NCBI RefSeq assembly: GCF_000950575.1
Contig: NZ_CP011005.1
Coordinates: forward strand, 2,356,001 to 2,420,000
DNA: 64,000 bases
Reading direction: 5' to 3'
From: Psychromicrobium lacuslunae
GTDB taxonomy: Bacteria; Actinomycetota; Actinomycetes; Actinomycetales; Micrococcaceae
A model generated the notes under the pieces. It searched no databases. It was not told the origin of the DNA and worked only from the letters and a program-made list of their open reading frames with translations. This document shows, in pieces, positions 9,778 to 37,860 of the stretch; positions within the stretch are counted from its first letter, which is position 1, and each line of letters begins with the position of its first letter. The position numbers and the translations under genes were made by a program.

Positions 9778-9798
9778 TCTGTGGTCAGACCACAGAAC
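9778..9798. promoter_or_regulatory. LldR operator 2
   Basis: Second copy of the same 15-bp core (9781-9795), extended to 21 bp by TTC/GAA. It ends 17 nt before the lldD start codon and almost touches its Shine-Dalgarno, a position that would block transcription of lldD. Confidence 0.85.
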
Positions 9799-9815
9799 AT
9801 CCGAGGAGGAGCCTG

Positions 9816-11054: not shown

Positions 11055-11107
11055 CCGCCGGCCTGGGTCAGTGAGGGTGTCAACGGTAGCGTCTCCGGCG
11101 AATGCGG

Positions 11108-11145
11108 CTATGCCTAATGCTTGTGACTAATGTCTATGCCTAATG
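11108..11145. repeat. Two 12-bp direct repeats, 26-bp period
   Basis: CTATGCCTAATG occurs at 11108-11119 and 11134-11145, with a degenerate third partial copy at about 11147. It lies between the convergent ends of lldD and the ArsR gene. No function is evident. Confidence 0.6.
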
Positions 11146-11152
11146 ACTGTGC

Positions 11153-11587: not shown

Positions 11588-11685
11588 AGAACTACCCTAG
11601 CGATATATAACCGAAAAGGCATTAAGGATGCCTACCCCACGCTACCGCCGAGTCTGAAGAACGAGGAGTGGGAGGCGGTGGGGAC

Positions 11686-12894: not shown

Positions 12895-13022
12895 CTCTGA
12901 AAGGCTACGTGATTCAGCGCAAAGCCGCGCAATCGCCCCGACGCACCACGCTAAAGCTCTAAAAAGTGGTTTACTACTTGTCAGATCTGCAATTCGTTCC
13001 GAGTAAGAAAGTCCCTCCGTCA

Positions 13023-14432: not shown

Positions 14433-15111
14433 GAAATCAAGCTCGAATTCGCGCCCGGCGCACAATGCGCCGGTGCTGGTGATTGGCCTGGGCCGCTTTG
14501 GCGCGGCCACCGCCGAGCAATTGGTCAAGCAGGGTCGTGAAGTACTCGCCATTGAGCGGGATCCTGCCCTAGTGCAGAAATGGTCGGGCGCGCTGACCCA
14601 TGTGGTTGAGGCAGATGCCACCAATATTGATGCGCTGCGTCAGCTCGGCGCGCAGGACTTTAACTCCGCTGTGGTTGGGGTGGGCACCTCCATTGAGTCC
14701 AGCGTGCTGATCACCGTTAACTTGGTAGATCTTGGCATCGAGCATCTCTGGGTCAAGGCAATCACCCAGTCACATGGCAAGATCTTGACCAGAATCGGCG
14801 CCAATCACGTGATCTACCCTGAGGCAGACGCCGGGGTGCGGGCAGCCCACTTGGTGTCGGGGCGGATGCTCGACTTCATTGAGTTCGACGACGATTTCGC
14901 GATCGTGAAAATGTACCCGCCTAAAGAAACTCAGGGCTTCACCCTGGCTGAGTCGAAGGTACGCTCCAAGTACGGAGTCACCATTGTCGGCGTCAAATCG
15001 CCGGGCGAAGACTTCACTTACGCGCAGCCGGACACCAAGGTCTCGGGCCGGCACATGCTGATCGTCTCGGGGCATGTTGACTTGCTGGAGCGCTTCGCGG
15101 CCAGGCCTTAG
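14425..15111 (+). CDS. KtrA/TrkA-family potassium channel regulatory subunit
   Basis: Cytoplasmic RCK ring subunit that gates the KtrB-like pore in response to nucleotides. The 228 aa include one RCK_N Rossmann domain (APVLVIGLGRFGAATAEQL, with AIERDPA at the end of strand 2) and one RCK_C domain from about residue 145. The start is TTG at 14425, inside the last codons of the transporter gene, with GAGAGG 7 nt upstream; the only ATG in frame lies 93 nt earlier within the neighbour. The overlap implies translational coupling and a 1:1-type complex. Confidence 0.92.
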   Translation: MAEKSSSNSRPAHNAPVLVIGLGRFGAATAEQLVKQGREVLAIERDPALVQKWSGALTHVVEADATNIDALRQLGAQDFNSAVVGVGTSIESSVLITVNLVDLGIEHLWVKAITQSHGKILTRIGANHVIYPEADAGVRAAHLVSGRMLDFIEFDDDFAIVKMYPPKETQGFTLAESKVRSKYGVTIVGVKSPGEDFTYAQPDTKVSGRHMLIVSGHVDLLERFAARP

Positions 15112-15141
15112 CGCTCAGTCATCAGTGAGCCCGGACTGGTG

Positions 15142-15978
15142 CTAAGCCTGGTCGAGCTCTGCGGTGATGTCGTCCGAACGTTTAGCTGCCGCTTGCGCCC
15201 CGGCCAAGACGATCGCTGGCAAATCACGCTCGTCGAAGACCGCGATTGCCCGCTCGGTGGTGCCGTTCGGGCTAGTCACCGCCTTCCGGAGTGCGGTGGC
15301 GTCAGCCCCCTGCTGCCCCAGCATCAAACCGGCACCGGCCACCGTCTCGGTGGCCAAGGTCTTGGCCGTTTCTTCGTCGACTCCCAGCTCGCGTGCGGCT
15401 CTTGCCATTGCTTCGGCCAAATAAAAGGCGTAGGCGGGCCCGGAACCGCTAATTGCACCGATCACCGGCATTTGCTCTTCGGGGACGTCTAAGACCACGC
15501 CAGAGCCCGCGAAGACCTGGTGCGCGCGAGCGGACTGCTCGGCGTTGACCGAAGAGCCGGTCGATAGCCCCACTACGCCCCGGCCCACCATTAGTGGGGT
15601 GTTAGGCATCGTGCGAACCACGGCTTGCCCTGCCGGTAGGGCGCGCTCGATCTGCTCAATGGTGACCGCGCCAGCCACGCTCACCACTACCGCCTCGGGC
15701 TCCAGGGCAGCGGAAATCTCTCGACAGAGCGGAGCGATTTGTGCGGGCTTAACGCCTAACACCACGACCTCAGCGCCCGCCACGGCCAGCGAGTTAGCTT
15801 GTTCCTCTTCGGAGTTGGCAATCGCGGTGATGCCGTGTCGCTGGGCTAGTTCCTCAGCACGCTCAATTCGACGTACGGTAGCCACCACGGTGGCGGGATC
15901 GACCGGACCGGCGAGCATCCCCGCCAGAATAGCTTCGCCCATTGATCCACAGCCCAGAAACGCAATTCTACTCGTCAT
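15142..15978 (-). CDS. proC: Pyrroline-5-carboxylate reductase
   Basis: Last step of proline synthesis: NAD(P)H reduction of pyrroline-5-carboxylate. The 278 aa begin with the dinucleotide fold IAFLGCGSMGEAILAG, contain VVLGVKPAQI and VRTMPNTPLMVG, and end with the dimerisation domain SGSGPAYAFYLAEAM. It is the third gene of the minus-strand Ppx/isomerase/proC series known from mycobacteria (Rv0496-Rv0500), but here a 490-bp gap separates it from the isomerase gene. Confidence 0.96.
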   Translation of the reverse strand: MTSRIAFLGCGSMGEAILAGMLAGPVDPATVVATVRRIERAEELAQRHGITAIANSEEEQANSLAVAGAEVVVLGVKPAQIAPLCREISAALEPEAVVVSVAGAVTIEQIERALPAGQAVVRTMPNTPLMVGRGVVGLSTGSSVNAEQSARAHQVFAGSGVVLDVPEEQMPVIGAISGSGPAYAFYLAEAMARAARELGVDEETAKTLATETVAGAGLMLGQQGADATALRKAVTSPNGTTERAIAVFDERDLPAIVLAGAQAAAKRSDDITAELDQA

Positions 15979-16164
15979 GTTCTCTATCCTTTCACCATCC
16001 CGAACAGCTATCGAATTTGTTGATCAAATGCCCGAAAAACCGCGGAAATACAACGAAATTGAAGTGTTTCTACATTGTCAGGATATTCCCAGCTTGATAG
16101 CAGCTTGTGCCCAGAGTGTGGTCCTAACGTAGTGAATACCTCATTAAGGTGCGAGTGATTGCGG

Positions 16165-16262
16165 ACTGGTCGTTCTCGAACGATCGGTTACAGCGCCGGA
16201 GAGTCGGGCAGTGTTCCCCCCAACCACTGCCCACCGAGACTCTCCGGTGCTTTCACTTTTTA
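16165..16262 (+). ncRNA. Candidate small RNA: two hairpins, second with a C6 loop and terminator-like tail
   Basis: Within the 490-bp gap 15979-16469 there are two tandem hairpins. The first pairs 16165-16175 with 16178-16188. The second pairs 16193-16205 with 16236-16250 and 16206-16213 with 16225-16232, leaving a loop that contains CCCCCC, and is followed by TTTCACTTTTT. The 3' end looks like a plus-strand terminator although no plus-strand protein gene lies upstream. The C6 loop recalls the actinobacterial 6C RNA, which has two C-rich loops; only one is C-rich here. No convincing promoter was identified, and the rest of the gap shows nothing else. Confidence 0.5.
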
Positions 16263-16469
16263 ACAGCCAATTCTGCTAACGACTGATGACTATGGTTTCC
16301 CGGTCTGGACTCGAGGCTCAGAACTTAAACAGCCGCACCGGACTAGCCAGTGAAAGTGGTGCCTAGATAGCTCCGCGCTAGATTGGGCGGTCAAAAATGG
16401 TGCAGATATCTAAGTAAGCCCGAGACAGCCCGGAACACAACCCCGGTCTCGGCTACAGCCCGAGCCGGA

Positions 16470-17258
16470 CTAGTCTGATTTCGTGCTGGCGAGATGCTGC
16501 CGAGCAAATCGCAAGGTCTCAGCTAACCACTCTTCTCGCTCGCCGACCCCCTTGGCTTTGCGCGTCGAAATCTCAGCAACCACTGTGCCGGTGAAACCAG
16601 CCTGGGCGAGAAACTGCAGCACTCTGGCAGCCTGCTGATTGCCCTGGCCGGGAATCAGATGCTCGTCTCGGGCCGAGCCCGAGCCATCGGTCAGATGAAT
16701 ATGACGCAGCCGCTGACCTAAATCCCGAACCGACTCAAGCGAGGAGACGCCCGCGGTGGCGGCATGTGAGAGATCCCAAGTGACATCGTCGTAATCCTGA
16801 GCCATCGGGTCCCAGCCGGGCAAATACGCCTTCACCTCCCGGCCGCGCACCCGCCAGGGATACATATTTTCCACCGCGATCCGCACCCCGCTGGACTCGG
16901 ATAGGTCACGCACTCCGGAGCTAAAGTTTCGGCCATACTCGCTCTGCCAGCGAAAGGGCGGATGCACCACAACGACGCTCGCAGCCAACTCAGCAGCCAA
17001 TTTTATTGATTGCTCCACCTTGTTCCAGTAGGTACCCCAGACCTGCTGGGTCAGCAACAACGTCGGGGCATGAATAGCGAGCACCGGCAGCTGGTATCTC
17101 TCGGTCAAGGTCCGCAAGGCGGCGGCATCCTGACTGGTGGCGTTATTGGTCACCATCACTTCCAGACCGTCATAGCCGAGGTCCTGAGCGGTTGCGAAGG
17201 CATCGTGGACCGAGAGCGGGTACACCGAGGCGCTAGAGAGAGCGACCGGAATAGGCAC
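16470..17258 (-). CDS. Sugar phosphate isomerase/epimerase-like TIM-barrel protein
   Basis: 262 aa of the xylose isomerase-like / AP endonuclease 2 superfamily. Metal-ligand positions are seen in VVHPPF, IAVENMYPW, DLSHAATAG, IHLTDGSGS and VVAEIS. The exact substrate is unknown. GTG start at 17258, 12 nt after the Ppx stop, so the two are probably co-transcribed. The gene corresponds to Rv0498 in the conserved Ppx-isomerase-proC order. Confidence 0.87.
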   Translation of the reverse strand: MPIPVALSSASVYPLSVHDAFATAQDLGYDGLEVMVTNNATSQDAAALRTLTERYQLPVLAIHAPTLLLTQQVWGTYWNKVEQSIKLAAELAASVVVVHPPFRWQSEYGRNFSSGVRDLSESSGVRIAVENMYPWRVRGREVKAYLPGWDPMAQDYDDVTWDLSHAATAGVSSLESVRDLGQRLRHIHLTDGSGSARDEHLIPGQGNQQAARVLQFLAQAGFTGTVVAEISTRKAKGVGEREEWLAETLRFARQHLASTKSD

Positions 17259-17270
17259 GTTGACCGACTT

Positions 17271-18257
17271 TCAACTGATTTCTGAGGCGGCACGTGCGCT
17301 GACGTGTCGCGGCGGCTCGAGCGGACCGTCGAAGACGAGTTGATCAAGGCGGCGCAAAATAAGACCCTCACGCAATGCCCACGGGCAGATTAGCACGGTG
17401 GAGACCTCGAAGAGCTCCAATGCCGCCTCCGCGACCAGGGCCCCAGCAAGCACCTGGCTAGCCCGCGCCCTGGACACCCCGGGCAAATGCAGTCGATCGT
17501 CGGCACTCATCGCGGTCAATCGCTGCGCCCACAGGCCGAGATCCACGGCGCGCAGCTCGCGTCGCACGAAAGGACCCGAGGCGCTGGGTGCCGCACCGGT
17601 AATCCGCGCCAATGAGCGGAAAGTTTTTGAGGTACCGACCACCAGATCAGGCTTACCCAGTTCGGCGAATTCGGCGATTGGCGCCTGCAGAGTGGCGCGA
17701 ATGTACTTCCGCAGCTTTTTTACGCTTTTGGCGCTTGGCGGGTTCTCCGGCAGCCAGTCACGAGTCAGCCGGCCAGCGCCGAGCGGCACCGAGATGGCTT
17801 TGGCGGGCAGTTCATCAGCCCCCATCGCCATTTCAAAAGAACCACCGCCAATGTCCAGGTCAAGCACTGTGCCAGTACCCCAGCCATACCAGCGACGTAC
17901 CGCAAAAAACGTCATCGCCGCTTCTTCCGGCCCGGTGAGTTCACGAAGCTGAATAGTGGTTTCCTGGCGCACTCGGTTCAGTACCAGCTCGCCATTGCTG
18001 GACTCACGGATGGCTGAGGTACAGAACGCCAACAGATCCTGGGCCTGATGAGTAGCAGCGAATTGCCGCGCCTCCAGCACAAAAGCAATCAATTCTCGCT
18101 GTCCCGCTTCGGTAATAGCACCATCCGGATCCAGGTATTGCACTAAGGAGAGCGGTCTTTTATGCGAGGCAAAGGGCACCGGCTGAGCGCCGGGATGAGC
18201 GTCGACTAGTAACAGGTGCACGGTATTGGAACCAATGTCGAGAACACCAAGTCGCAT
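17271..18257 (-). CDS. Ppx/GppA-family exopolyphosphatase
   Basis: 328 aa of the actin-like ATPase fold. The phosphate-binding loops are DIGSNTVHLLLVDAHPG at the N-terminus and LDIGGGSFEMA in the middle, with the catalytic acid in the intervening TGPEEAAM. It has the short two-domain form common in actinobacteria (MTB PPX1/Rv0496 type), without the C-terminal HD domain. It should hydrolyse short-chain polyphosphate or ppGpp-related substrates. First gene of the minus-strand unit. Confidence 0.9.
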   Translation of the reverse strand: MRLGVLDIGSNTVHLLLVDAHPGAQPVPFASHKRPLSLVQYLDPDGAITEAGQRELIAFVLEARQFAATHQAQDLLAFCTSAIRESSNGELVLNRVRQETTIQLRELTGPEEAAMTFFAVRRWYGWGTGTVLDLDIGGGSFEMAMGADELPAKAISVPLGAGRLTRDWLPENPPSAKSVKKLRKYIRATLQAPIAEFAELGKPDLVVGTSKTFRSLARITGAAPSASGPFVRRELRAVDLGLWAQRLTAMSADDRLHLPGVSRARASQVLAGALVAEAALELFEVSTVLICPWALREGLILRRLDQLVFDGPLEPPRHVSARAASEIS

Positions 18258-18394
18258 GCTGTGGAGTCTATACCGTGCTTAGAGCTGACCGTATTACCGA
18301 CCTTTTCGTGACGGTTCATCAACACAGCAGATCCATTGTTGATCAGCGAGGACCGAGCATTGAAAGTCAAATGGTTCCGTACAAGACTGTAGAA

Positions 18395-19750
18395 ATGAGT
18401 GAAACCCGGCGACTAGCCACAAAAACCATCACAAACAATCAAGTTTCCGAATTGCATCAGGCGTTCGCCGATGATTCAGCGGCCATTCTGGCAAAGAACG
18501 CGGTCACCCGAACGGCCCTCAATGAGCTGGCGGTGAACCACAGTGTCTTAGCTAGCAGTTCGCATTCGGTCTCTGATCGACTGGATGACTGGAAGGTCAC
18601 TAACCAGAAGAAATCTGGTCGGTGCTGGCTTTTTGCCGCACTCAATCTGTTGCGAGCCGAGGCCCGGCAGATCCTCAATGTGAAGGATTTCGAGTTCTCG
18701 CAGAACTATCCGATGTACTTCGACAAGCTAGAAAGAGCCAATTACTTCTTGCAGTCGGTGATCGAAACTGCCGACCGGCCACTCGATGATCGTCTGGTGG
18801 TCTTCCTCAGCGAGTCGCTAATGGGCGACGGCGGGCAGTGGAACATGTCCAGCAGCATTTTCAAAAAATATGGTGCGGTGCCGCAAGAAGCCATGCCCGA
18901 GACCGAGTCCTCCTCCGATACTGCCCAGATGAATGCCCGGCTCAAGACCTTACTACGCAAAGCCGCACTTGAATTGCGCCAAGCTGTGGCAAGCGGTGCG
19001 AGTGAGACGGAATTGGACGCCGCCGTTCAAAACACCATCACCGAGGTGCACCGGGTACTGACTATTCACCTCGGCGCACCGCCCAGCAGCATCGACTGGC
19101 AATGGATCGACGACGATAAGAAGTTCAGCCGAGAAGGCGTACTCAGCCCGCAAGAATTTCTTGCCAAATACACCAAACTCAATCTCGATGATTATGTTTG
19201 CCTGGTTGACGATCCTCGCACCGAGCATCCCAAAGGGAAGACTCTCACCGTCGAGTACCTCGGCAATGTGATTGGCGGCGACGACACCGTCTACCTCAAC
19301 GTGGATATTCAGCTGATGAAAGACCTCGCCAAAGATGCGCTGCAAAACGGCAGCCCGGTCTGGTTCGGCTGCGATGTGGGCCCGCAAATGCTGCGCAGCG
19401 ACGGACTTTGGGATGCCGAGTTGTTTGATTACAGCGGCGTCTATGGGGTGGACCTCGCACTGAACAAGGAACAGCGGGTCAATATCGGAGAGTCTGCGAT
19501 GACCCACGCCATGCTGTTCACCGGGGTCGATGTGCTGGACGGCCAGACCCGGCGCTGGCGAGTGGAGAACTCCTGGGGTGAGGAGAACGCCGATAAGGGT
19601 TTCTACACCATGAACGACTCTTGGTTTGATGAGTACATGTTTGAAATCGCCGTCGATAAGAACAAGCTGAGCCCCGAGTTGCAAGCTGCCTTGGCGGAGC
19701 AACCGCTGGTACTGCCCGCCTGGGACCCAATGGGCGCCCTGGCCCGCTAA
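18395..19750 (+). CDS. pepC: C1-family aminopeptidase C (bleomycin hydrolase family)
   Basis: A cytosolic papain-fold aminopeptidase, usually a hexamer with active sites facing an inner cavity. The nucleophilic Cys is residue 77 in KKSGRCWLFAA, the catalytic His is in MTHAMLFTGVD and the Asn in VENSWGEENADKG. Its 451 aa match PepC length. The C-terminus ends in ...MGALAR, close to the family's intrusion of the tail into the active site. ATG 18395 (MSETRRLATK) is favoured by family length; ATG 18371 remains possible. Confidence 0.93.
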   Translation: MSETRRLATKTITNNQVSELHQAFADDSAAILAKNAVTRTALNELAVNHSVLASSSHSVSDRLDDWKVTNQKKSGRCWLFAALNLLRAEARQILNVKDFEFSQNYPMYFDKLERANYFLQSVIETADRPLDDRLVVFLSESLMGDGGQWNMSSSIFKKYGAVPQEAMPETESSSDTAQMNARLKTLLRKAALELRQAVASGASETELDAAVQNTITEVHRVLTIHLGAPPSSIDWQWIDDDKKFSREGVLSPQEFLAKYTKLNLDDYVCLVDDPRTEHPKGKTLTVEYLGNVIGGDDTVYLNVDIQLMKDLAKDALQNGSPVWFGCDVGPQMLRSDGLWDAELFDYSGVYGVDLALNKEQRVNIGESAMTHAMLFTGVDVLDGQTRRWRVENSWGEENADKGFYTMNDSWFDEYMFEIAVDKNKLSPELQAALAEQPLVLPAWDPMGALAR

Positions 19751-24908: not shown

Positions 24909-26486
24909 TTAGCTGGGCTGGTCCGGAATCAGGAAACCGTCGAGAATCAGCTGCCTAATTTCCTCCCGAAGCTCCAGCCCTCGCCCCAGCAGCGCCTCCA
25001 GCGCAGCGATAATCTGTCCGACGCTCAGCGTCCCGTCACAGGCCGAGACGAAGCCTGCTAGCTCGGTGCTGAGCAGAGTCGTTCGGCGCAGTCCGGCACC
25101 TTGACGGAGCAAGATCACTCCGGGGTGCTCGGCTCCTGGGCGCTGGTGGCGCTCCTCGGTGACATCCTCAGCCACCAACAGCTTGGCTGCGTCGAGATCC
25201 TCCGCGGTGCTGGCGGAGAGCCAGTCATGGCGTTCGATGCTGGCTGCTAATGCTGGCCCAATTGGCTGTTCAATCGGATGGTCGATTCCTTCCATTCGGC
25301 GCAACCTTGAGGAGCTTCCCGCGCTGACTGACCGTCGCAGCCAGAGCATGCCGAAGCCAATGCTGGCGATTTGACGAGCTTCGAAGTCGAGTAAGTACTC
25401 GCGGTAGACGCTGGCATAGCCCTCCGGTTCGCGGCCCTGCGAGGCATCCTGCAACCAGGTCTCCGCATACTGCTCCGGGCTGAGCTGCTCGCGTTGAATC
25501 AGCCAGTAGTCCAAATCATCTGCGAACCAAGGTTCGAGCCTTTGCTGCCAAGAAGCGGCCGAGCGGGGGATCTCCCAGTTTCCCAGCAATTGCGCGCTGC
25601 CAGCCTCGGCAAGCACCCGGGGTAACCCTTGAATCAAAGAGGAAACCAGCTCATCACCAGGCAATCCGCCGTCGCGGTAGGTGAACTGCTCGCTGGCGGC
25701 CTCGTCCGGGTGTCGTGGAGTGATCACAAAGGGCGGGTTCGAGACCACCAGGTCGAATTCTTCTCCGGCCACCGGTTGTAGCAGGCTGCCCAGTCTGAGT
25801 TCGACTCGCGCATTGAGGTTTTCGGCGTCAAGACCCAGGGCAGCCGCATTCAGCAGCAGGTTGAATCGGGTAAAGCCAAGCGCTCGTTCGGAAATATCGG
25901 TCGCCGTGACGTGCTCCGCATGACGTAATAGGTGCAAAGTTTGAATCCCGCAGCCACAGCCGAGGTCCAGCGCACGACGCATCGGCTTGCGGATTGTCGC
26001 CTGCGCCAAGCTCAAAGAAGCCCCACCGATCCCCAGTACGTGGTCCCGACGCAATACTCCGGGGCTTTGGTGCGCGGCAAGATCGCTGCAAACCCAGAGC
26101 CGCACTTCACCCTGTTCATCCTGAAAGGCATAGGGGCGCAGATCAGCCAACACCCGGCATTCCGTGCCCGCTGTCTCGGCGAGCTCCACTGTCTCAGCTA
26201 AGCCGAGAGAGCCCAGCCCGACCACGCCCAGCCTCGGCAAGGCCGCCTCGAGCTTTTCTATTGACACCGGTCGTGCCAGCAAGAAGAACCTGATCAAGGT
26301 GGCGAGCGCAGACTCAGATCGTTCAGTGCTCAATAGCGCAGCACCGAACTGTTCCCGGTTGAGCGCCGCATAACCGCTTTCGCCCAGCAGCTCGGCAACT
26401 CCGTCAATCGTGTAGTTGGCCGCCTCAAAGTCAGCTAGCAATGCGGGCAAGAGCAGCGGATCTGCTCGGGGGACGTCGAAAGTCAT
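24909..26486 (-). CDS. Class I SAM-dependent methyltransferase with extra N- and C-terminal domains
   Basis: 525 aa. The N-terminal ~130 residues form a helical domain (DUF7059-like, my recollection). The central methyltransferase has ALDLGCGCGIQTLHLL (motif I) and DLVVSNPPFVITP, the NPPF motif used by enzymes that methylate an amide or exocyclic amino nitrogen. The C-terminal ~160 residues look like a winged-helix domain (LSVGQIIAALEALLGRG). The NPPF motif points to a glutamine, adenine or guanine N-methyltransferase; the substrate is not known. It ends 48 nt after the sensor kinase frame begins on the same strand. Confidence 0.85.
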   Translation of the reverse strand: MTFDVPRADPLLLPALLADFEAANYTIDGVAELLGESGYAALNREQFGAALLSTERSESALATLIRFFLLARPVSIEKLEAALPRLGVVGLGSLGLAETVELAETAGTECRVLADLRPYAFQDEQGEVRLWVCSDLAAHQSPGVLRRDHVLGIGGASLSLAQATIRKPMRRALDLGCGCGIQTLHLLRHAEHVTATDISERALGFTRFNLLLNAAALGLDAENLNARVELRLGSLLQPVAGEEFDLVVSNPPFVITPRHPDEAASEQFTYRDGGLPGDELVSSLIQGLPRVLAEAGSAQLLGNWEIPRSAASWQQRLEPWFADDLDYWLIQREQLSPEQYAETWLQDASQGREPEGYASVYREYLLDFEARQIASIGFGMLWLRRSVSAGSSSRLRRMEGIDHPIEQPIGPALAASIERHDWLSASTAEDLDAAKLLVAEDVTEERHQRPGAEHPGVILLRQGAGLRRTTLLSTELAGFVSACDGTLSVGQIIAALEALLGRGLELREEIRQLILDGFLIPDQPS

Positions 26487-26614: not shown

Positions 26615-26702
26615 GGGTAGTAAACTGGTTGGCATGCAGACAGCGCAGCGATTTAGCAGCCCTCGGCCGATTGGCCGCCGGGGCTGCTCAGCGATGCGCT
26701 AA
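26615..26702 (+). promoter_or_regulatory. Leader with promoter, short ORF and long hairpin upstream of the PheRS-like gene
   Basis: A -10-like TAGTAAACT lies at 26618-26626. Downstream, ATG at 26634 opens a 22-codon ORF (MQTAQRFSSPRPIGRRG...) ending TAA at 26700-26702. Almost the whole ORF folds as one imperfect hairpin: 26642-26647 pairs with 26695-26700, and the AGCAGCCC arm pairs with GGGCTGCT, with a GGCC/GGCC tip. A leaderless leader peptide acting as an attenuator is one reading; a structured RNA is another. The main ATG is 60 nt further on. Confidence 0.55.
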
Positions 26703-26762
26703 CTCGCCCCGGAGGTTCGGTCGAGGGAGTTTCCCCACTTCTACTCACCGAAAGAACCTTCA

Positions 26763-27899
26763 ATGCCTAATTATCTGTCTTTAGCCGAACTCAATGAAGC
26801 GTTGAGCGTGCCCGATCTCAGCGATCCCTCCGATGGCAAGCACGCAATGCAGCTGCTTCTCGACGAAGTCATTACCGCCCTCAGCAGCAACTGGCAGCTT
26901 GCTAGTGTGACTCATCGCTTCAATCCCTTGGTGGCAACCCGGGACAACTATGACCGGCTCGGTTACAGCCCAGGCGCGGTCACGCGGGACTCACGTTATT
27001 CGCGGCATGTCTCACCTACCGTGATGCTCCGCAGCCACACCTCCGCGGGCATCCCGGCACTCTTAGACACGCTCCGCGAGACCGAGGAACGCTACGATAT
27101 GCTGCACGTCTTGCCCGGGCTGGTCTATCGCCGGGACGCGGTGGATCGGCACCACGTTGGCACCCCGCATCAACTCGATATCTGGCGAATAAAATCCCGT
27201 GGCATGCTCGGCCTGCCAGAGCTCCACGAAATGATGCAGGCAGTGGCGCAAGCGGTATTGCCCGGCTGCGAATGGCGGGCTACCCCGACCCAACACCCCT
27301 ACACCTCGCACGGACATCAGCTCGACGTGCTGGTCACCGGCGCCAACGGTTCAAGCGAATGGCTGGAACTGGGTGAATGTGGCTTAATCGGTAGCCATAT
27401 TCTGCGTGCCGCCGGCCTGGAGCCGCGTCGTTGGTGCGGCTTGGCGATGGGAATGGGACTGGACCGCGCTCTGATGCTACGGAAGCAGATCAATGACATC
27501 CGGTTACTGCGCGGCACCGATCCTCGGGTGCAGTCTCAGCTCCAGGATCTCTCACCGTGGCGGCCGGTGTCATTGATGCCGCCGATGCATCGGGACCTGT
27601 CATTGGTCTGTGACTCCTCGGTGGATGAGGAAACGCTGGGCGATGTGGCTAGAACCGCTCTGGGCAGTCGAGCAGACGAACTCTCAGCGCTGGAAATTCT
27701 GGCCAACACCCCGGCGGATCAATTGCCGGCGGTGGCCCGTGCTCGGCTGGGCATCGTCGAGGGACAGTCAAATGTGCTACTTAGGCTGACTCTTCAGGCG
27801 TTGGATCGAACTCTCACCATGAGCGAGGCGAACTCGCTGCGTGACACGGTGTACCTAGCGTTACACGAGGGGCCAGTGCTGGAATTGATCGCTGGCTAG
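26763..27899 (+). CDS. Single-chain phenylalanyl-tRNA-synthetase-like protein (FARS2-like: PheS core + FDX-ACB)
   Basis: 378 aa. The class II core resembles PheRS alpha: LRSHTS at 89-94, motif 2 VYRRD at 121-125, HQLD at 136-139, motif 3 GMGLDRALML from 230. Residues 267-378 are an FDX-ACB anticodon-binding domain (PPMHRDLSL, LTLQALDRTLTM), normally at the end of PheT. The N-terminal tRNA-binding coiled coil of bacterial PheS is missing. So the order matches monomeric mitochondrial PheRS (FARS2). The Phe-sandwiching FPF motif is HPY (178-180) and the pocket Glu is Asp139. The bacterial two-subunit PheRS is not in this window. Its amino acid, tRNA or other acceptor is unknown. No obvious partner gene lies beside it. 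Confidence 0.85.
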   Translation: MPNYLSLAELNEALSVPDLSDPSDGKHAMQLLLDEVITALSSNWQLASVTHRFNPLVATRDNYDRLGYSPGAVTRDSRYSRHVSPTVMLRSHTSAGIPALLDTLRETEERYDMLHVLPGLVYRRDAVDRHHVGTPHQLDIWRIKSRGMLGLPELHEMMQAVAQAVLPGCEWRATPTQHPYTSHGHQLDVLVTGANGSSEWLELGECGLIGSHILRAAGLEPRRWCGLAMGMGLDRALMLRKQINDIRLLRGTDPRVQSQLQDLSPWRPVSLMPPMHRDLSLVCDSSVDEETLGDVARTALGSRADELSALEILANTPADQLPAVARARLGIVEGQSNVLLRLTLQALDRTLTMSEANSLRDTVYLALHEGPVLELIAG

Positions 27900-28034: not shown

Positions 28035-28946
28035 CTAGCGGGAAGCGGGAACTCGCTCAGATCCTTCCGCCGCTTGCGGCTCGCACCCTTCCGGGCAGCG
28101 CACGTTCTCAGCGTCCTTAGCGCAATCGGCACAGTAAAGGCTGAGTGTCCGGCAACTCAGATTGCTGCAATTATAAAAATCGCTAGTGGCTGAGCTGCAG
28201 CGAACACAACTGCCAATGGTCTTAGCTTCCGGGCTGAATTCCATCCGCATCCGCTGATCGAAAACGTACAGCGAACCTTCCCATAGACCCTGATCTCGAA
28301 ACTTTTCGCCGTAACGAACGATACCGCCGTCGAGCTGGTAGACCTCTGAGAATCCTCGGTTCAGCATTAAGCTGGAAAGCACCTCACAACGCACGCCGCC
28401 GGTGCAGTAGGTGACGATTGGCTTGTCTTTGAGCGAATCGTATTTACCGGAATCGAGCTCCTTGATGAAGTCACGAGTGGTCGAGACATCCGGCACTACA
28501 GCGTTTTTGAATTTGCCGATTGCCGCTTCGAAAGCATTTCGGCCGTCGAAGAAGACTACTTCTTTTTCCGCCACCAGCTCATGCAGTTCCTCGGGTTGCA
28601 GGTGCTTGCCACCGCCCACCACACCGTTTTCGTCGACCTCAAGCTCTCCGGGCGCGCCAAAACTGACGATCTCGGCTCTTGTTTTGACGCTCAGCCGTGG
28701 AAAGTCGTCGGCTGAGCCGTCGGACCATTTCACGTCGACCTGCTTGAAGTATTCCTTGGTGGCTTTGACATATTGTTTGAGCGCGCCGAGTTCGCCGCCA
28801 AGGGTGACGTTAATGCCATCTTTGGAGATCAAGATGCGTCCTCTGAGTCCGTGCTGTTCGCACAGCGAACGCTGCCAGAGCCGCACCGCTTCGGGGTCTG
28901 CCACCGGAGCGAAAGCGTAAAAGAGCACGATTCGTTGTATTGCCAC
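28035..28946 (-). CDS. trhO: tRNA uridine-34 hydroxylase TrhO (rhodanese domain)
   Basis: Oxygen-dependent hydroxylation of wobble uridine to ho5U in tRNA. The 303 aa contain the family N-terminal domain ([15 protein letters not shown]) and a rhodanese domain with the active Cys181 in [12 protein letters not shown]. The C-terminus has a cysteine-rich segment (CVRCSS..., YCADC, RCPEGC) that could bind zinc. Start ATG 28946. Its neighbourhood to a tRNA-synthetase-like gene, convergent with it, may be coincidence. Confidence 0.92.
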
Positions 28947-31347: not shown

Positions 31348-31749
31348 CTAAGCCGGTTGGCTCGGCGGTCCAGCTCGGGCCTGCACGGTGACTTGTTGGT
31401 AGAAAACGGAGAGCGGTGCGGAAAACTGCACCGAAGCGCTCACTCTTACCGTGTCGAACATCGGCCCCTGCACCTCGCAGAAGTTCAACACCGCTCCGTG
31501 GCGACTTGCAACCGAATCGGCCACCTGGCACGGCTCCCCAGGGCTGAGCCCCCGAGCGGCGTCCGCGGCAGCCAATGCTGCCAAATCGGCTGCACTGGCC
31601 GCCCGCTGGTAACCGGAAACAGCCTGCGACAATAAGGACAACGCACAAATTAAGACCATCGCAGCGATGCCCAGCCCGATCGCAAGCACCGTCCCGGAGC
31701 CACGTTGCGTAATGGCAAGCAGCGCAGCTGAGCCGGTGCGAGACTTCAT
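31348..31749 (-). CDS. Rv3654c-like TadE/TadG-family pilus protein
   Basis: 133 aa. A basic start, one strong membrane helix (about 12-35) and an Ala-rich outer portion with two cysteines (GEPCQVADSV, FCEVQGP) that could form a disulfide. The family is a minor pilin-like protein of Tad loci. Start ATG 31749 overlaps the stop of the TadE-like gene by 4 nt. Last gene of the cluster, 5 nt from the convergent helicase end. Confidence 0.83.
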   Translation of the reverse strand: MKSRTGSAALLAITQRGSGTVLAIGLGIAAMVLICALSLLSQAVSGYQRAASAADLAALAAADAARGLSPGEPCQVADSVASRHGAVLNFCEVQGPMFDTVRVSASVQFSAPLSVFYQQVTVQARAGPPSQPA

Positions 31750-32132
31750 CGGGCGCTACTAATACTTGGCTGTTCCGGCGGAGAGAACTGCTCAAGCTGC
31801 GCACTAGCCTGAGCATTCAACCGCCAGGCCAGCACGCTAGCAAAGGGGCCTCTTGCGGTTGCCGACACCGTAACGGTGACAAAGCCCTCCGTGCTGGAGA
31901 CTGTCACGCTGGCGTCCTGCCCGATAATGGTCCTGGCCGCCTGCACCGTGCCAGCGGTGGTTTCTCCGCGGGCGGCTTGGCGTGCCCCAGCCCGAGCAGC
32001 ATCGTCAAGTCTCAGCTGAGTCAAACCCAGCTGAGCGGTGAACACAATAATCGCGAAAAGCATGGTGATCACCGGCAGTAGGACCGCGAGTTCTGCCGTC
32101 ACCGAGCCCCGCTCAACCGAGGTTGAGCGCAT
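31746..32132 (-). CDS. TadE-family minor pilin
   Basis: 128 aa with the TadE-type N-terminus ERGSVTAELAVLLPVITML, whose Glu in the first positions of the hydrophobic helix is the pseudopilin signature, followed by an extracytoplasmic region (DDAARAGARQAARGE). It should be cleaved and exported by the Tad machinery. The start overlaps the DUF4244 stop by 20 nt. A palindrome (32110-32129) covers this junction and may couple translation of the two genes. Confidence 0.85.
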   Translation of the reverse strand: MRSTSVERGSVTAELAVLLPVITMLFAIIVFTAQLGLTQLRLDDAARAGARQAARGETTAGTVQAARTIIGQDASVTVSSTEGFVTVTVSATARGPFASVLAWRLNAQASAQLEQFSPPEQPSISSAR

Positions 32133-32388
32133 TGCGAATAATCGTTAGCAGGAACCCTCGCACCTCGTCGCTGCGAAGTATCACCACCAGCAGCCCCGCG
32201 AAACCAACTGCGGCCAGCGTCGCAATGGCATACTCAGCGGTGGCCATGCCTAGTTCGCTTCGACGCAGTCGCACCGCCTCGTCCCAAGGCCGAGTTGACG
32301 ATGAGCTAGCTGCACCGGGAAAGATCTCGTGTACATTTTCCTGCACTTTCGCTTGGGCCCCCGAAACGGCCGCGGATCTAATGCTCAT
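32113..32388 (-). CDS. DUF4244 Flp-pilin-like protein
   Basis: 91 aa. The segment LGMATAEYAIATLAAVGFA has the Flp prepilin layout: Gly before the cleavage site, then Glu and Tyr at positions 5-6 of the mature protein and one hydrophobic helix. So this is the probable major pilin. ATG 32388 is preceded by GAAAGGAAACC. It lies directly upstream of the TadE-like gene in the Rv3660c-Rv3654c order. Confidence 0.88.
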   Translation of the reverse strand: MSIRSAAVSGAQAKVQENVHEIFPGAASSSSTRPWDEAVRLRRSELGMATAEYAIATLAAVGFAGLLVVILRSDEVRGFLLTIIRNALNLG

Positions 32389-32451
32389 GGTTGGTTTCCT
32401 TTCAATGGTGTTGGTCGATTACTTGTTCGGTAGCTCTCAACGCGTCATGTA

Positions 32452-33045
32452 TTAGCCGCGCCCCGGTAACAGCGCAAGTACCAGTGGAACCACGCCGAGG
32501 CAAAAGAATGCAGGCAGAGCCGTCAGTCCCATTGGCAGCACTAGGCGTACCCCGAGTGCCGCAGCCTGACGCTGTAGCTCTCTCTGCGCCTGCCGCCTCC
32601 TGCTCGCGGCCTCCTGGCGTAATAACAGCGACGAAGACGTTCCACTGAGCGCCACAAAACTCAAAGAATCCGCCAAGTCGTGAAGCGCGGTATCACTGTT
32701 TGCCTGAGCTTTTACTTGGCTTTTTACTTGGGCTTTTACTTGATCTTCTTTCTGCCACCAGGCCTGCCATGCTTGCTGCCAACTGCTGCCGGTACGTAAT
32801 GCCGATGCCACCGCAGCCAAGCCTTTCCCAAAGGCCCCCTCACTGACAGAGGCTAGGTACATCAGTCCGGTCTGCAGGGCGTTGCCAGCGTCGAGCATGC
32901 TCGCCAAAAGATCCAAGCTGACCGCCACTTCGGCAGAAGATACCGGTCTTTTCGGTTTCCTCGACGGCTTTCGACTGCTTGTCAGGGGCCGGTCTAAAGG
33001 CCAGAAAAGCAGCGTTGCGGCAAGACAGCAGAGAGAAAAGACCAT
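32452..33045 (-). CDS. Type II secretion F-domain protein (TadC-like)
   Basis: 197 aa membrane platform protein of the Tad pilus machine. The N-terminal helix (LCCLAATLLFWPL) is followed by a cytoplasmic helical F domain (LDLLASMLDAGNALQTGLM) and a C-terminal pair of membrane helices (VLPMGLTALPAFFCLGVVPLVLALL). It includes short QVKAQVKSQVKAQAN Lys/Gln repeats that are unusual in the family. Gap of 64 nt before the pilin gene. Confidence 0.85.
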   Translation of the reverse strand: MVFSLCCLAATLLFWPLDRPLTSSRKPSRKPKRPVSSAEVAVSLDLLASMLDAGNALQTGLMYLASVSEGAFGKGLAAVASALRTGSSWQQAWQAWWQKEDQVKAQVKSQVKAQANSDTALHDLADSLSFVALSGTSSSLLLRQEAASRRRQAQRELQRQAAALGVRLVLPMGLTALPAFFCLGVVPLVLALLPGRG

Positions 33046-33049
33046 CGTC

Positions 33050-33760
33050 CTAAGCCACCTGACTCGCTCGTCGAATCAGTCCGGATACCCACACCCGACA
33101 GCTCAGGCTCAAAATGATGCCGGCACAGAGCGCAGAAGTCCCCCACGGGGGAGACAGCAACGCGGCAAGCGGATCCACCCCCATCAAGTAACCGCAGCCG
33201 AACCCCAATAACGGAAGCCAGGCCAGCAATTTCGCTGTCGCCTTTGGACCGGCGAGTGCGGTGACACGGAGGCTCGCAATATCTATCTGCTGTTCTAAGT
33301 GTCCGGCTAGATTCTCAAGCAAACCCGCCAGCGGGGTTCCACTCCGCTCTGAAACTCTGAGGCATCTAGCAAGCTCGGTCGCCCCTTGCAGTGCCAAAGG
33401 TTCAGCCTGAGCTGGCCAATTCTTTGGCTCCAGTGCGGCGGCCGGTGAGATCCCCAATGCGGCGAGCGCCGCTGCCTTGTGTAAGAGTCGCTTGAGCGCC
33501 TCCGATTTAACACCCAGCGCTGCCTGGTGCCACACTTCGAAGTCGGTTCGGCCAGCGCGGAGCAAAAGCGCCAATTTACGGAACACCTCCAATAGTTCGA
33601 TACCGCTCACCGCCGTCGGCCGCAGTTGTCGCTGGGAAACGGCCGAGCAGCGAGCATGTCTGTTTGCCCGGATCCGTTGAGCCCCCGACAAGAGCACGCA
33701 GGCGGTAGCAGAAAGCAAAAAGATGGTCATTGGCGTAGTTTCTTCCGCAGCTGCGGCCAA
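33050..33760 (-). CDS. Type II secretion F-domain protein (TadB-like)
   Basis: 236 aa second inner-membrane platform subunit. One N-terminal helix, then the F domain (LAGLLENLAGHLEQQIDIA), and two C-terminal helices (AKLLAWLPLLGFGCGYLMGV and TSALCAGIILSLSCRVWV). It lies 4 nt upstream of the TadC-like gene and its start overlaps the TadA stop. Confidence 0.86.
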   Translation of the reverse strand: MAAAAEETTPMTIFLLSATACVLLSGAQRIRANRHARCSAVSQRQLRPTAVSGIELLEVFRKLALLLRAGRTDFEVWHQAALGVKSEALKRLLHKAAALAALGISPAAALEPKNWPAQAEPLALQGATELARCLRVSERSGTPLAGLLENLAGHLEQQIDIASLRVTALAGPKATAKLLAWLPLLGFGCGYLMGVDPLAALLSPPWGTSALCAGIILSLSCRVWVSGLIRRASQVA

Positions 33761-34893
33761 GCGGTTCCATGCCGAAGCTCGCCCGGCGAATACTCTGCCG
33801 CCAATTCCACTCCTAGTACCCCCGATGCCAACGTGAACATGCCAATTTCACTGAGTCTGCGCCCTTCTGGGGCGTTCTCTAGATGCAGCACCACATCAAT
33901 GGCACTGGCTGCTTGCACCGCGACAGCCTGCGGACTGAGGCCAGCGAGTGAACCCAGGGATTGGAGTCGGGCAGGCACGTCCCTAGCGCTATTGGCATGC
34001 ACAGTACCTCCGCCAATGTGCCCGGTGTTGAGCGCAGTCAGCAGCTCGCGTACTTCAGCGCCACGGCACTCCCCCACAATGAGCCGATCTGGGTTCATCC
34101 GCAGCGCCTCATGGATAAGTTGGCTCATCACAACTCCCCCACTACCCTCAATATTTGGCGCTCGACTCTGCAACTGAAGTATCTGTGGATGTTCTGCGTT
34201 CAGTTCCGCGGTGTCCTCGACGAGCACGATTCTTTGATTTCTCGGACAGAGCCCCAGCAGTGTACTCAGCAAGGTGGTCTTTCCCGAACCGGTCGCTCCG
34301 CTAATCAGTACGTTCAGTCCTTGCATGACCAGATTTTTCACCAGATCAGCGCTTTGCGGGCAGAGCATCCCGCAAGAAATCAGCTCAGCCAGTTGAAAGG
34401 CTCGAAGCCTGGCGATTCTAATCGAAATCAAGGTTCCGCGAGCTGAGATCGGTGGCATTACCGCGTGCACCCGAATTCCCCCGGGCAACTGGACATCGGC
34501 ATAGGGCACAACATCGTCGAGCCTTTTTCCGGCAGCAGCCGCTAAACGCTTCGCCAATGCCAGCACCTGAGCTTCATCAACGAAGTGCAGGTCGGTTTTC
34601 GTCAGACCTGAGCTATCGCGCAGCCAAACCTCCTGCGGTGAATTGACGAAAATGTCAGTCACCTCTCTGCGGTTGAGAAATGACTGTAGCGGTCCCAGGC
34701 CAGTCAGCTCAGCTTTTATCCGGTCTGCGGCAATCAGCGATCCGGTAGCCCCTAATAGATGGCCGGTGGATCTGAGCGCTGCGGCAACCCTAGCCGTGGT
34801 CACTGGCTCAAGGTCGAGAGTGAGCTCGGTTCTCACGTCGTCCAGAAGCTGCTCATCCTGGCTCAGCGTTTGGACAGTTTCGCGGTGCTTCAT
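33727..34893 (-). CDS. tadA: TadA-family ATPase
   Basis: 388 aa secretion/pilus motor ATPase. Walker A LISGATGSGKTTLL near 210, Walker B-like Asp/Glu box VLVEDTAEL, and His box GGGTVHANSARD. The N-terminal domain includes VTDIFVNSPQEVWL. It powers Flp pilin assembly. The start overlaps the ssd stop by 4 nt. Confidence 0.93.
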   Translation of the reverse strand: MKHRETVQTLSQDEQLLDDVRTELTLDLEPVTTARVAAALRSTGHLLGATGSLIAADRIKAELTGLGPLQSFLNRREVTDIFVNSPQEVWLRDSSGLTKTDLHFVDEAQVLALAKRLAAAAGKRLDDVVPYADVQLPGGIRVHAVMPPISARGTLISIRIARLRAFQLAELISCGMLCPQSADLVKNLVMQGLNVLISGATGSGKTTLLSTLLGLCPRNQRIVLVEDTAELNAEHPQILQLQSRAPNIEGSGGVVMSQLIHEALRMNPDRLIVGECRGAEVRELLTALNTGHIGGGTVHANSARDVPARLQSLGSLAGLSPQAVAVQAASAIDVVLHLENAPEGRRLSEIGMFTLASGVLGVELAAEYSPGELRHGTAWPQLRKKLRQ

Positions 34894-35966
34894 CGTTCCC
34901 GCCCGTCCATCACGGCAAGCAGCGCAGAACTCAGCCGCCTGAGCGTTCGGTGGCCTGCATAGCTCGGCAGAGTTCCCTGCTCGGCGGCGGAGCGGACGCC
35001 GGGTATGCTGGCGACTCTGCCCAGCAGGGGTGCCTCAAGATAGTTGGCAATTAGTTCGGCATCTAGCCCCTCGGGCATACCACCTCGCAACACCAGATAA
35101 GGACGCTCGGTCGGCAGGGCATCAAGCAGCCGACGCGTGGCCGCCATGGCGAGCAGATTGGCCGGCAATACACACAGCAGCAGGTCAGCCCGCAAGACAA
35201 AGTTCTCCTGCGTCTCTCGGCTCCGCCCCGGATCTGTCAGCACAATATCGAAACCACGACGAGCCGCGTCGATAACAGCCGCCGCGGATCGTTGCAGCAC
35301 CCTGATACCTGCTTCACCTCCGGGCTGTGCCGAGTTACCAAAACCAAGCACCGGTGATGATGCTAGCTCAGGGAGTGCCTCCGCGAACTCGCTAGGATTC
35401 AAACTTCCCGAGCTCGCCGCTAGGCCCTGCCAGTTCAGTCCATCCGGCGGGTTCGGAGCCAAGCTCGATTCGACTCCCGCACCCCACGGATCGGCATCAA
35501 CGAGCAAGGAGGAGCGACCGAGCCGGTTTAATTGCAGAGCTAATAATGCGCTCAGCGTGGTTGCCCCCGCGCCCCCGCAACCGCCCAGTATCGTTACCAT
35601 TCGGCCGCGTGAGCGCTCGGCATGCAGACCGCTGAGAAACTCAACCAACCAGGTAGCGGCTTTGGGCATTGGAGCCACCCGGTCAATGCCTAGGCTGGCG
35701 GCGGCTAGCCACAACTCGGCCTCTTCATCGTCCCGTCCGACTAAAAGGGTCGGGGTGTCATCATGCCGCCAAGACCGTTGAGGCAAGGACTGCAGGTCGA
35801 CTACCAGCGCGGAAATTGTGGCCGCGTTGAGCGATCCCACAACGAAGTCCGCTCCGGCTGCGGCTAACGCCGCCTCAACCTGAGCACGCAGCTCTGCGGT
35901 CGCGATTAGCAGTTGCACCGGGGCTGGTGGTTTGCGCGGACTTATCGCTGCGGTTGTTGCTGGCAT
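34890..35966 (-). CDS. ssd: Septum-site-determining-like protein Ssd (CpaE/TadZ-like)
   Basis: 358 aa. A response-regulator-like N-terminal domain without an obvious phosphoacceptor is followed by a ParA/MinD-like domain (TILGGCGGAGATTLSALLAL, then LLVDADPWGAGVESSL). The usual Walker-A lysine is missing (GGAGATT), as in Rv3660c-type proteins. Such proteins position the Tad apparatus or affect septation. ATG 35966 gives the family length; the frame is open to 36446 but the extra region is low complexity and covers the divergent promoter area. Confidence 0.88.
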   Translation of the reverse strand: MPATTAAISPRKPPAPVQLLIATAELRAQVEAALAAAGADFVVGSLNAATISALVVDLQSLPQRSWRHDDTPTLLVGRDDEEAELWLAAASLGIDRVAPMPKAATWLVEFLSGLHAERSRGRMVTILGGCGGAGATTLSALLALQLNRLGRSSLLVDADPWGAGVESSLAPNPPDGLNWQGLAASSGSLNPSEFAEALPELASSPVLGFGNSAQPGGEAGIRVLQRSAAAVIDAARRGFDIVLTDPGRSRETQENFVLRADLLLCVLPANLLAMAATRRLLDALPTERPYLVLRGGMPEGLDAELIANYLEAPLLGRVASIPGVRSAAEQGTLPSYAGHRTLRRLSSALLAVMDGRER

Positions 35967-36186
35967 GGGTCCAGCTTGTTCGCACGGTAAGCGTATTGGA
36001 AGAACCGGATCGCTAGTTGTGGGGTAACTACCGAAATCTGGTTCTTGTGGAGGATGAGACGGCTCATCGAATCGCAAAATCATCGCTGACAGAACTTCCC
36101 GGACAGAAGTTGTCCGGGTTACCGAATTGTCGGCTCCGCCAATTCGTCGAAGCTCACTCAGAAGGCGGCACAATTGAAGGATGTAT

Positions 36187-37860
36187 ATGTTGCTGGCTGA
36201 GGCCGAAGGTGCCGAAGTCGCATTGCTGCCGCTGGATGCGGCGGGCCTCCCGCAATCCAGCGCCCGCCTGGTGCGCCCGGAGCAGCTAGCCGAGATCGTC
36301 CGTGAGGTCGAAGCACGGCGGAGACCTCGCTGGGTATGGGAACGCGCCCAGCACTGGTACCCCGCTCTGCTGGCAGCGGGAGTCAGTCTTGAACGCTGCC
36401 ACGACCTGGCGCTCTGCCGGCCTATCCTAGCTGGCTCAGAATTCACGCTGAAGACCAGTTACCCGCGGGAATATGCGCCGACCGAGGAACCTCTTGAACC
36501 GCCGGTCAGGATTGCCGTCGACCCTGCGCAAGGAAGCCTTTTCACCGAATTCGATCGGCCTGTCACACGCCGCGGCCAAACTGTCGAGGAACTCAGCGCG
36601 GAGCTCCAACTGCAGTTGAAAACGGTCAGCGATTCCCAGTTCCCGGCACGCCTGCAACTACTCCTGGCAGCCGAATCAGCTGGCGCCCTAGTCGCCGCCG
36701 AGATGCAGTATGCCGGCGTGCCCTGGCGCGTTGATCTGCATGAAAAGCTATTGGAGGAAACTCTCGGCCCCAGGCCAACGAACAACAACATCGTGCCGCA
36801 GAGACCGGCAAAAATGGAAGCGCTGGTGCGAGAGATTTCCGAAAAACTCGGCAGCGCGGGCTTCAACCCCGACTCACCCCAGGAGCTAATCCGTGCCCTG
36901 CACCGCGCCGGGATCGAGGTGAAAACCACCCGCAGCTGGGAGCTGGAAAAATCTAAGCACCCGGCCATCGCACCGCTACTGGCCTATAAAAAACTCTCCC
37001 GGTTATTCAGCGCCAATGGTTGGGCCTGGCTTGATCAGTGGGTGCTTGATGGCCGGTTTAGACCCGAGTACGTGGTGGGTGGCGTGGTCTCTGGCCGATG
37101 GGCCTCAAGGGGCGGTGGCGCCCTGCAAATCCCCAAACAAGTTCGTGGTGCGGTGCATGCCGATCCGGGTTACAAACTCATTGTGGCGGACGCCGCGCAG
37201 CTAGAGCCACGGGTACTCACCGCTTTGGCGCAAGATCGCAAAATGGCTGAAGCCGCCCAAGACCACGACCTTTACACCGGTATTGCTGCCCAAGGGTTCG
37301 GCGGCGATCGCAGCAAGGCAAAAATCGCCCTGCTCGGCGCAATGTATGGCGCAACCACCGGCGAATCTGGACGGCTGATGCCACAACTGAGCCGAACCTA
37401 CCCCCGGGCGGTTGGCTTGGTCGAGGCAGCGGCACGGTCCGGCGAACGAGGTGAGATTGTCACCACCAGGCTAGGCCGAAGCTGCCCGGCACCCTCCGAG
37501 AGATGGCTGAAGGCGCAACGCACCACCACCGAGCAAGAGCAACGCTGGGCCGATAACCTGGCACGTTCCCGGGGCCGCTTCACCCGTAACTTCGTGGTCC
37601 AAGGCTCCGCTGCTGAATGGGCGTCTTGCTGGCTCGCCGAGCTCCGCCGCAGATTGCGAGCGCGGCCAGAGCTGGCCGCCGAAATGGTATTTTTCCTACA
37701 CGACGAGGTGATGGTGCACTGCCCGGAAACCTCAGTCACCGACGTGAGCTTGCTGGTTGAAGAGGCAGCTAGCGCCGCCAAGGAACTGCTGTTTGGTAAC
37801 GCTCCCATCAACTTCCCGGTCAGCCTTGCCGTCGTTGACCACTACGACCAGGCCAAATAA
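36187..37860 (+). CDS. Family A DNA polymerase (actinobacterial bifunctional exonuclease/polymerase type)
   Basis: 557 aa PolA-like enzyme without the 5' nuclease domain. Polymerase motif A is VADAAQLEPRVLTAL, motif B RSKAKIALLGAMYG, motif C FFLHDEVMVH. The N-terminal ~100 residues occupy the place of the 3'-5' exonuclease but no Asp-x-Glu exo motif is visible. The second ATG (36187) fits GAAGG at 36175-36180 better than the ATG at 36181. Divergent from ssd over about 220 bp. It may act in repair alongside DNA polymerase I. Confidence 0.87.
   Translation: MLLAEAEGAEVALLPLDAAGLPQSSARLVRPEQLAEIVREVEARRRPRWVWERAQHWYPALLAAGVSLERCHDLALCRPILAGSEFTLKTSYPREYAPTEEPLEPPVRIAVDPAQGSLFTEFDRPVTRRGQTVEELSAELQLQLKTVSDSQFPARLQLLLAAESAGALVAAEMQYAGVPWRVDLHEKLLEETLGPRPTNNNIVPQRPAKMEALVREISEKLGSAGFNPDSPQELIRALHRAGIEVKTTRSWELEKSKHPAIAPLLAYKKLSRLFSANGWAWLDQWVLDGRFRPEYVVGGVVSGRWASRGGGALQIPKQVRGAVHADPGYKLIVADAAQLEPRVLTALAQDRKMAEAAQDHDLYTGIAAQGFGGDRSKAKIALLGAMYGATTGESGRLMPQLSRTYPRAVGLVEAAARSGERGEIVTTRLGRSCPAPSERWLKAQRTTTEQEQRWADNLARSRGRFTRNFVVQGSAAEWASCWLAELRRRLRARPELAAEMVFFLHDEVMVHCPETSVTDVSLLVEEAASAAKELLFGNAPINFPVSLAVVDHYDQAK

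Follow-up and report, generated by a model that had tools for sequence, protein, structure and literature searches.

The stretch of DNA analysed here, referred to as the window, comprises 64,000 nucleotides of the Psychromicrobium lacuslunae genome (NZ_CP011005.1, assembly GCF_000950575.1, positions 2,356,001-2,420,000 of the forward strand). Its subject is srmL, a gene for a protein related to the PheS subunit of phenylalanyl-tRNA synthetase (PheRS), together with a leader open reading frame (ORF) and a set of RNA pairing segments immediately upstream. On balance, we take the product to be an auxiliary, single-chain PheRS. The ORF calls were made by a script and are heuristic.

26763..27899, plus strand: srmL, 378 residues, a PheS-type class II core (residues 82-259) fused to an FDX-ACB domain (residues 270-368).

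A Pfam search matched the core to tRNA-synt_2d with 99.9 bits and the C-terminal part to FDX-ACB with 29.8 bits, slightly below the cut-off of 31.1. In a hidden Markov model search of 45 SrmL proteins, the PheS core was detected in all and FDX-ACB in 42 (E <= 0.001), which bears out the proposal, made in an earlier sequence-only reading of this DNA, that the two domains are joined in one bacterial chain. The same reading had doubted whether the family was described. The match to NCBIfam NF051887.1, "PheS-related mystery ligase SrmL", settles this point: with 494.8 bits (cut-off 300) and coverage of positions 2-349 of the 349 in the profile, the window protein is a full-length member of a family that is named but whose function is unstated. 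The phrase "PheS-related mystery ligase" occurs in no paper found, and the word SrmL only in papers with unrelated titles among the matches listed.

The N-terminal coiled coil of PheS is absent from the structural model of SrmL, and in a fold comparison made with VIA-align the best match along the whole chain is human mitochondrial PheRS; on both counts the layout is the one that the sequence-only reading had put forward. Its claim that srmL lacks a PheT partner also holds, and the pheS and pheT genes that it left to be sought elsewhere are both present. The ordinary pheS of P. lacuslunae scores 303 bits to TIGR00468 (cut-off 237) and has pheT behind it. This is the only PheT-core match in the genome, about 2 Mb from srmL, and a search of the genome gave no such match beside srmL itself.

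The residues of the amino-acid pocket are as first described, with HPY at positions 178-180 and HQLD at the Gln-x-Glu site. The FPF pocket of mitochondrial-type PheRS is thus replaced by H-x-Y. Across the 45 proteins, H178, Y180, Q137 and D139 are invariant and H136 almost so, while P179 varies; the phage copies read HPY, HYY or HNY. The step from HPY to an amino acid other than Phe, one of the options raised initially, is a weak inference because human PheRS uses Tyr412 and because Gln-x-Asp is already present in 8 of the 14 FPF-bearing phage single-chain PheRS-like proteins; for the same reasons, the pocket alone does not decide the amino acid. According to PMC12447630, Asn410 and Tyr412 of the human cytosolic enzyme replace the bacterial FPF residues, and Phe is stacked by Tyr412 and Phe438. 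It follows that a Tyr at this position is compatible with Phe. Instead of Phe, SrmL might load a non-canonical aromatic amino acid or a Phe analogue onto tRNA-Phe or a special tRNA, and the invariance of H178 and Y180 would suit a changed substrate equally well. We nevertheless regard this as rather improbable, given also that no common biosynthetic neighbour was conspicuous in the 38 SrmL groups defined below, that the Phe codon of the leader is an ordinary one and that the phage island around srmL encodes ordinary synthetase families.

The region upstream of srmL contains the following elements, where SD denotes the Shine-Dalgarno sequence.

26634..26702, plus strand: leader ORF MQTAQRFSSPRPIGRRGCSAMR, 22 codons; the same kind of leader is present at 95 of 106 loci, the window included.
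26652..26654, plus strand: leader codon 7, the invariant Phe codon (TTT), from comparison of the leaders.
26660..26669, plus strand: segment A CCCTCGGCCG, which begins five bases past the Phe codon and pairs with B or C.
26673..26688, plus strand: segment B, forming an A:B hairpin within the leader ORF.
26713..26717, plus strand: anti-SD strand, AGGTT here and often GTCC in relatives, which pairs with the ribosome-binding region.
26718..26727, plus strand: segment C CGGTCGAGGG, which pairs with A or D.
26728..26759, plus strand: segment D and the ribosome-binding region, of which 26755-26759 pairs with the anti-SD strand.

An automatic leader search requiring a Phe three residues ahead of a Pro accepted 97 of the 106 loci, which are not independent, since the named and the unnamed sets share loci (L067 and L081, for instance). 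Two calls were discarded, one cut by a contig end (L076) and one in the wrong frame (L121), leaving 95; L121 is a likely leader that goes uncounted, with CGATTT and segment A at the usual distance. The nine loci without a leader are four phages, three loci with fewer than 150 bases upstream, the broken copy L077 and L139, where no trace of a leader was found upstream of srmL. Leaders span 18-28 codons (23 codons in 63/95), with the Phe at codon 7 in 83/95. It is present in all 95, as TTT in 93 and TTC in 2, where TTT makes up 15% of the Phe codons in predicted ORFs of the same loci; the codon ahead of it is CGA in 91/95, and CGA accounts for 9% of Arg codons. The figure of 95/95 is partly built in by the search rule, and the independent point is that only nine loci failed, most of them for reasons that can be given.

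The PRP and GR of the leader peptide coincide with RNA pairing segments. The Phe residue is retained despite base changes in L062 (CGC TTC), L122 (TTC) and L156 (TCA TTT), and because of this the codon, beyond the mere bases, seems to be kept. If Phe is indeed the cognate amino acid, as we infer, all 95 accepted leaders contain the cognate codon expected of an attenuator. The leader pattern occurs in 16 of 149 genomes, in 15 of them at srmL or a remnant of it, and the reversed pattern in none; in its strict form it misses 3 of the 18 srmL genomes. Service to another gene was considered and rejected, the sole match away from srmL (G437) falling within a long ORF (L181, 932-2548). A leader tRNA or known riboswitch was likewise discarded, with no Rfam match at gathering scores and no tRNA called by ARAGORN in the window. 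For the phenylalanine operons of Actinobacteria, Seliverstov et al. 2005 (PMC1262725) describe no conserved upstream RNA regulatory structures.

Pairing was analysed in an alignment of 60 leaders, 14 of the 74 dereplicated leaders not being entered; L157, which has a stop inside its stretch, was omitted from alignment A4. Segments A and C form 569 standard pairs out of 600, compared with 541 +/- 2.9 after C was swapped among sequences (largest of 2000 trials, 552), with exchanges of C-G for T-A, C-G for G-C and G-C for A-T. For A:B, A:C, C:D and anti-SD:SD, pairing within a sequence gives better duplex energies than pairing between sequences in all 5000 permutations. No such specificity was seen in the permutations for B:C (4997 of 5000 as low), B:D (308), A:D (302) or C:SD (321), and B:C and B:D are ruled out as switching helices. 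Kinship among the sequences could inflate these statistics, for which the non-specific helices act as a control. Two further specific pairings, of B and of the 5' leader, each with the stretch before C, shift when a ribosome is masked in. The helices are thus mutually exclusive and one of them covers the ribosome-binding site, again as in an attenuator. In folding calculations the accessibility of the SD is 0.31, compared with 0.42 in leaders with shuffled upstream parts; because the SD is less open than in the shuffled leaders, the default state is predicted to hide the ribosome-binding site of srmL. The constrained Phe codon suggests that the switch may sense the supply of Phe-tRNA.

Viral contigs of 415, 517, 578 and 508 kb encode full-length SrmL, as do the phage record LR745206 (635 kb) and a 181 kb contig that carries a possible transfer-messenger RNA and may not be phage. 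In L161, with 25 tRNAs in 21 kb, srmL has a tRNA-Phe(GAA) as its nearest tRNA on either side, and in L163 a single tRNA-Val separates it from a tRNA-Phe just upstream. In the huge-phage contig L174 (507,910 bp), srmL begins 8 bases past a short hisS-like gene in an island (3247-19643) of synthetase-like genes, several of them short, for LysRS, TrpRS (240 residues), SerRS, HisRS (211 residues), GlyRS, AlaRS (240 residues) and TyrRS; there are 28 tRNAs in 21 kb, two of them tRNA-Phe about 8 kb from srmL. At 1829-1903 of the same record, between tRNA-Lys and tRNA-Trp, ARAGORN calls a tRNA whose anticodon has four bases (ggaa). Across the six viral records with SrmL, no other protein matches the PheS core strongly; an extra weak match in two of them (21 and 18 bits) lies, by reading or position, in a GlyRS-like and a LysRS-like gene. 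The seventh record, L177, has instead a single-chain PheRS that scores 346.7 bits to TIGR00469 (cut-off 258) and matches the PheT C-terminus. Such single-chain PheRS-like proteins occur in 17 viral loci (L177, L200-L216), with FPF in all 14 examined. The L177 protein also matches phrog_19793, listed as of unknown function. Two further viral scans gave nothing new or no relative. A phage that has many tRNAs and synthetases, and SrmL as its sole PheS-like gene, would most simply use SrmL as its PheRS.

SrmL could also be a Phe-using ligase for an acceptor other than tRNA, in the manner of EpmA, a LysRS relative that acts on EF-P. The weak FDX-ACB match of the window protein (29.8 bits) and a regulation that is not clearly of the charging-enzyme type would fit such a role. 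The phage tRNA arrays, the full-length match to mitochondrial PheRS, the occurrence of FDX-ACB in 42 of 45 members and the lack of a constant neighbour gene all speak against it, and we judge it quite improbable. No result obtained here shows a non-tRNA acceptor or an amino acid other than Phe; among the options named in the sequence-only reading, it is the resistant Phe enzyme that best fits the Phe-codon leader, the phage tRNA-Phe genes and the plasmids described below.

The chromosomal surroundings of srmL in the window are given for context.

24909..26486, minus strand: upstream neighbour, DUF7059 / small methyltransferase, part of the Micrococcaceae site.
28035..28946, minus strand: downstream neighbour, a TrhO-type tRNA uridine hydroxylase.

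Further along, at 31348-36446 on the minus strand, visual inspection of the ORF list alone shows a run of genes that resembles a tad-type pilus cluster. For the neighbourhood count, 101 loci were collapsed into 38 SrmL groups at 75% identity. The most widespread neighbours, a helicase (9/38), a methyltransferase (8/38) and TrhO (8/38), represent the inherited Micrococcaceae site as far as listed; beyond it no gene is common to many of the 38 groups, and a conserved partner gene was rejected. Pfam annotation of 68 of the 176 candidate neighbour proteins, with 25 of 72 families among the matches listed, gave five GNAT acetyltransferases, two APH phosphotransferases and one aminoglycoside adenylyltransferase; with no background count, these matches are suggestive only. 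In L156, a metagenome-assembled genome of Frankiales, srmL is followed by a gene for tryptophanyl-tRNA synthetase (TrpRS) at 2190-3368, with a likely start near 2379. It is one of two in that genome and the lower scoring (273.9 vs 346.2 bits), and it is preceded by a 13-codon ORF, MGTGPASTWWRRD (2222-2263), that reads Trp-Trp. Here two extra synthetases adjoin, and each is preceded by a leader containing its own amino acid; this is a single case, spotted by eye. In L143, a LeuRS gene (5928-8918) stands upstream of srmL with a DegV-family gene in between.

Scores above the SrmL cut-off were obtained in 16 of the 149 family genomes and in 2 of 396 drawn from the phylum, P. lacuslunae itself being in both counts. 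The gene is broken or partial in G422, G447, G523, G407 and G075, and the G423 copy ends at a contig end. A second, PheS-type match is present in each of the 18 family genomes in which SrmL or a remnant of it occurs. A genome scan gave 229 relatives, and the best 80 of the 229, which were analysed, all carry actinobacterial titles. Three copies are on plasmids, two of which have resistance genes beside srmL: a Glutamicibacter plasmid where it adjoins a chloramphenicol exporter with tet(33) 8 kb further on, and a Corynebacterium diphtheriae plasmid with a partial SrmL match between erm(X) and tet(65). The third, from the gammaproteobacterium Azotobacter, has no resistance gene listed nearby. 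Families are intermixed in the SrmL tree, for example Nocardia with Microbacterium at 99/99, and this speaks for probable transfer between species. As would be expected of an antibiotic-resistant auxiliary synthetase, srmL is mobile, occurs sporadically and accompanies a housekeeping enzyme that is present in addition. An auxiliary PheRS could serve particular stress or growth conditions instead of conferring inhibitor resistance. Most srmL loci are not plasmid records, and the phage copies suggest Phe-tRNA supply over resistance, both in favour of such a role; the sporadic and decaying distribution, the resistance genes on two of three plasmids and the adjoining second TrpRS with its own leader argue the other way, and we consider it unlikely.

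Overall, we favour, by a modest degree of confidence, the conclusion that SrmL is an auxiliary single-chain PheRS, and we find it plausible, at a lower level of confidence, that it is resistant to an inhibitor of PheST. Three lines lead to Phe and tRNA-Phe: the Phe-codon leader, the phage copies set among tRNA-Phe or synthetase-like genes, and the adjoining second TrpRS with its Trp-Trp leader. The enzyme would activate Phe and charge tRNA-Phe, the cell would keep it in reserve for times when PheST is insufficient or inhibited, and the altered pocket (H178, Y180, Gln-x-Asp and W141) may confer resistance to an inhibitor directed at the Phe site. One Phe analogue listed as acting on PheRS is ochratoxin A (PMC7916415).

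Several observations, besides the pocket invariance noted above, weigh against this conclusion. SrmL falls below the cut-offs for both monomeric mitochondrial PheRS (TIGR00469, 117.2 bits against 258.35) and bacterial PheS (TIGR00468, 97.4 bits against 237), and it forms a single long branch (2.52) separate from PheS and from the FPF phage enzymes, and the tree program flags long branches meeting. In three of the six virus or phage records with SrmL (L162, L166 and L176), there is no tRNA within 10 kb of the gene, and the PheT core domain is found in none of the seven viral records, a weak absence as these may be fragments. To our knowledge, no inhibitor has been described. The simple rule that stalling on the Phe codon would expose the ribosome-binding site is not backed by folding: with a masked ribosome holding the Phe codon in the A site and covering 10 bases beyond, SD accessibility is unchanged on average, rising by more than 0.1 in 7 of 60 leaders and falling by as much in 8. 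Masking of 12 or 14 bases beyond gives a mean of 0.35 vs 0.31. Accessibility increases by more than 0.15 in 10-15 of 60 leaders when the ribosome stands one to four codons past the Phe, and in 23 of 60 when it has reached the leader stop; a rough pattern places the beginning of an anti-SD-like motif within a few bases of that stop in 28 of 60. Three explanations come into question: kinetics may matter, complete translation of the leader may be what activates srmL, or the stall may have another cause. If full translation activates, a good supply of Phe-tRNA would favour srmL, which is ill-suited to a rescue enzyme.

A testable function can now be offered for what NCBI terms a mystery ligase, and a compact PheRS is of interest to genetic-code work. 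We put forward only tentatively the wider proposal that SrmL is the first auxiliary inhibitor-resistant PheRS, shared by huge phages and soil actinobacteria and governed by a Phe-codon leader and translational RNA switch. Were it true, the spread of SrmL would be a sign of a natural PheRS antibiotic yet to be discovered. The carriage of a mobile PheRS by resistance plasmids would suggest that the enzyme is a natural antibiotic target and that resistance to PheRS-directed drugs could already circulate.

Among known systems, mitochondrial PheRS (FARS2; TIGR00469) is one of the closest, with the PheS core and FDX-ACB in one chain of the same fold. SrmL differs from it by an identity of 24%, a TIGR00469 score below cut-off, and HPY with Gln-x-Asp in place of FPF with Gln-x-Glu. 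It would work like mitochondrial PheRS yet is not filed there, because both the TIGR00469 cut-off and the FPF pocket are missed. The viral single-chain PheRS-like proteins (L177/L200, L201-L216) also have a PheS core in a chain of SrmL-like length but retain FPF (14 rows examined) and form a separate clade. Bacterial PheS shares the class II core, with 25% identity to Mycobacterium tuberculosis PheS in the structural alignment, whereas SrmL is without the coiled coil and the PheT partner and has the fused FDX-ACB. A 2010 review (PMC3275996) states that no monomeric synthetase with this class II module is known other than mitochondrial PheRS, and the text of a 2022 review of duplicated synthetases (PMC9437257) contains neither the term PheRS nor phenylalanyl. 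Auxiliary synthetases are a known kind; it is the Phe member, the Phe-codon leader and the phage copies that we consider new. The auxiliary, indolmycin-resistant TrpRS1 of Streptomyces has cognate codons in its leader. Vecchione and Sello (2009, 2010) are reported to have described it as under ribosome-mediated leader control by transcriptional attenuation. SrmL would resemble it as a second synthetase under leader control, with Phe in place of Trp, but the srmL helices point to control of the translation start where TrpRS1 reportedly employs transcriptional attenuation. To the NF051887 SrmL family as named, the present analysis adds the leader, the phage copies and the synthetase context.
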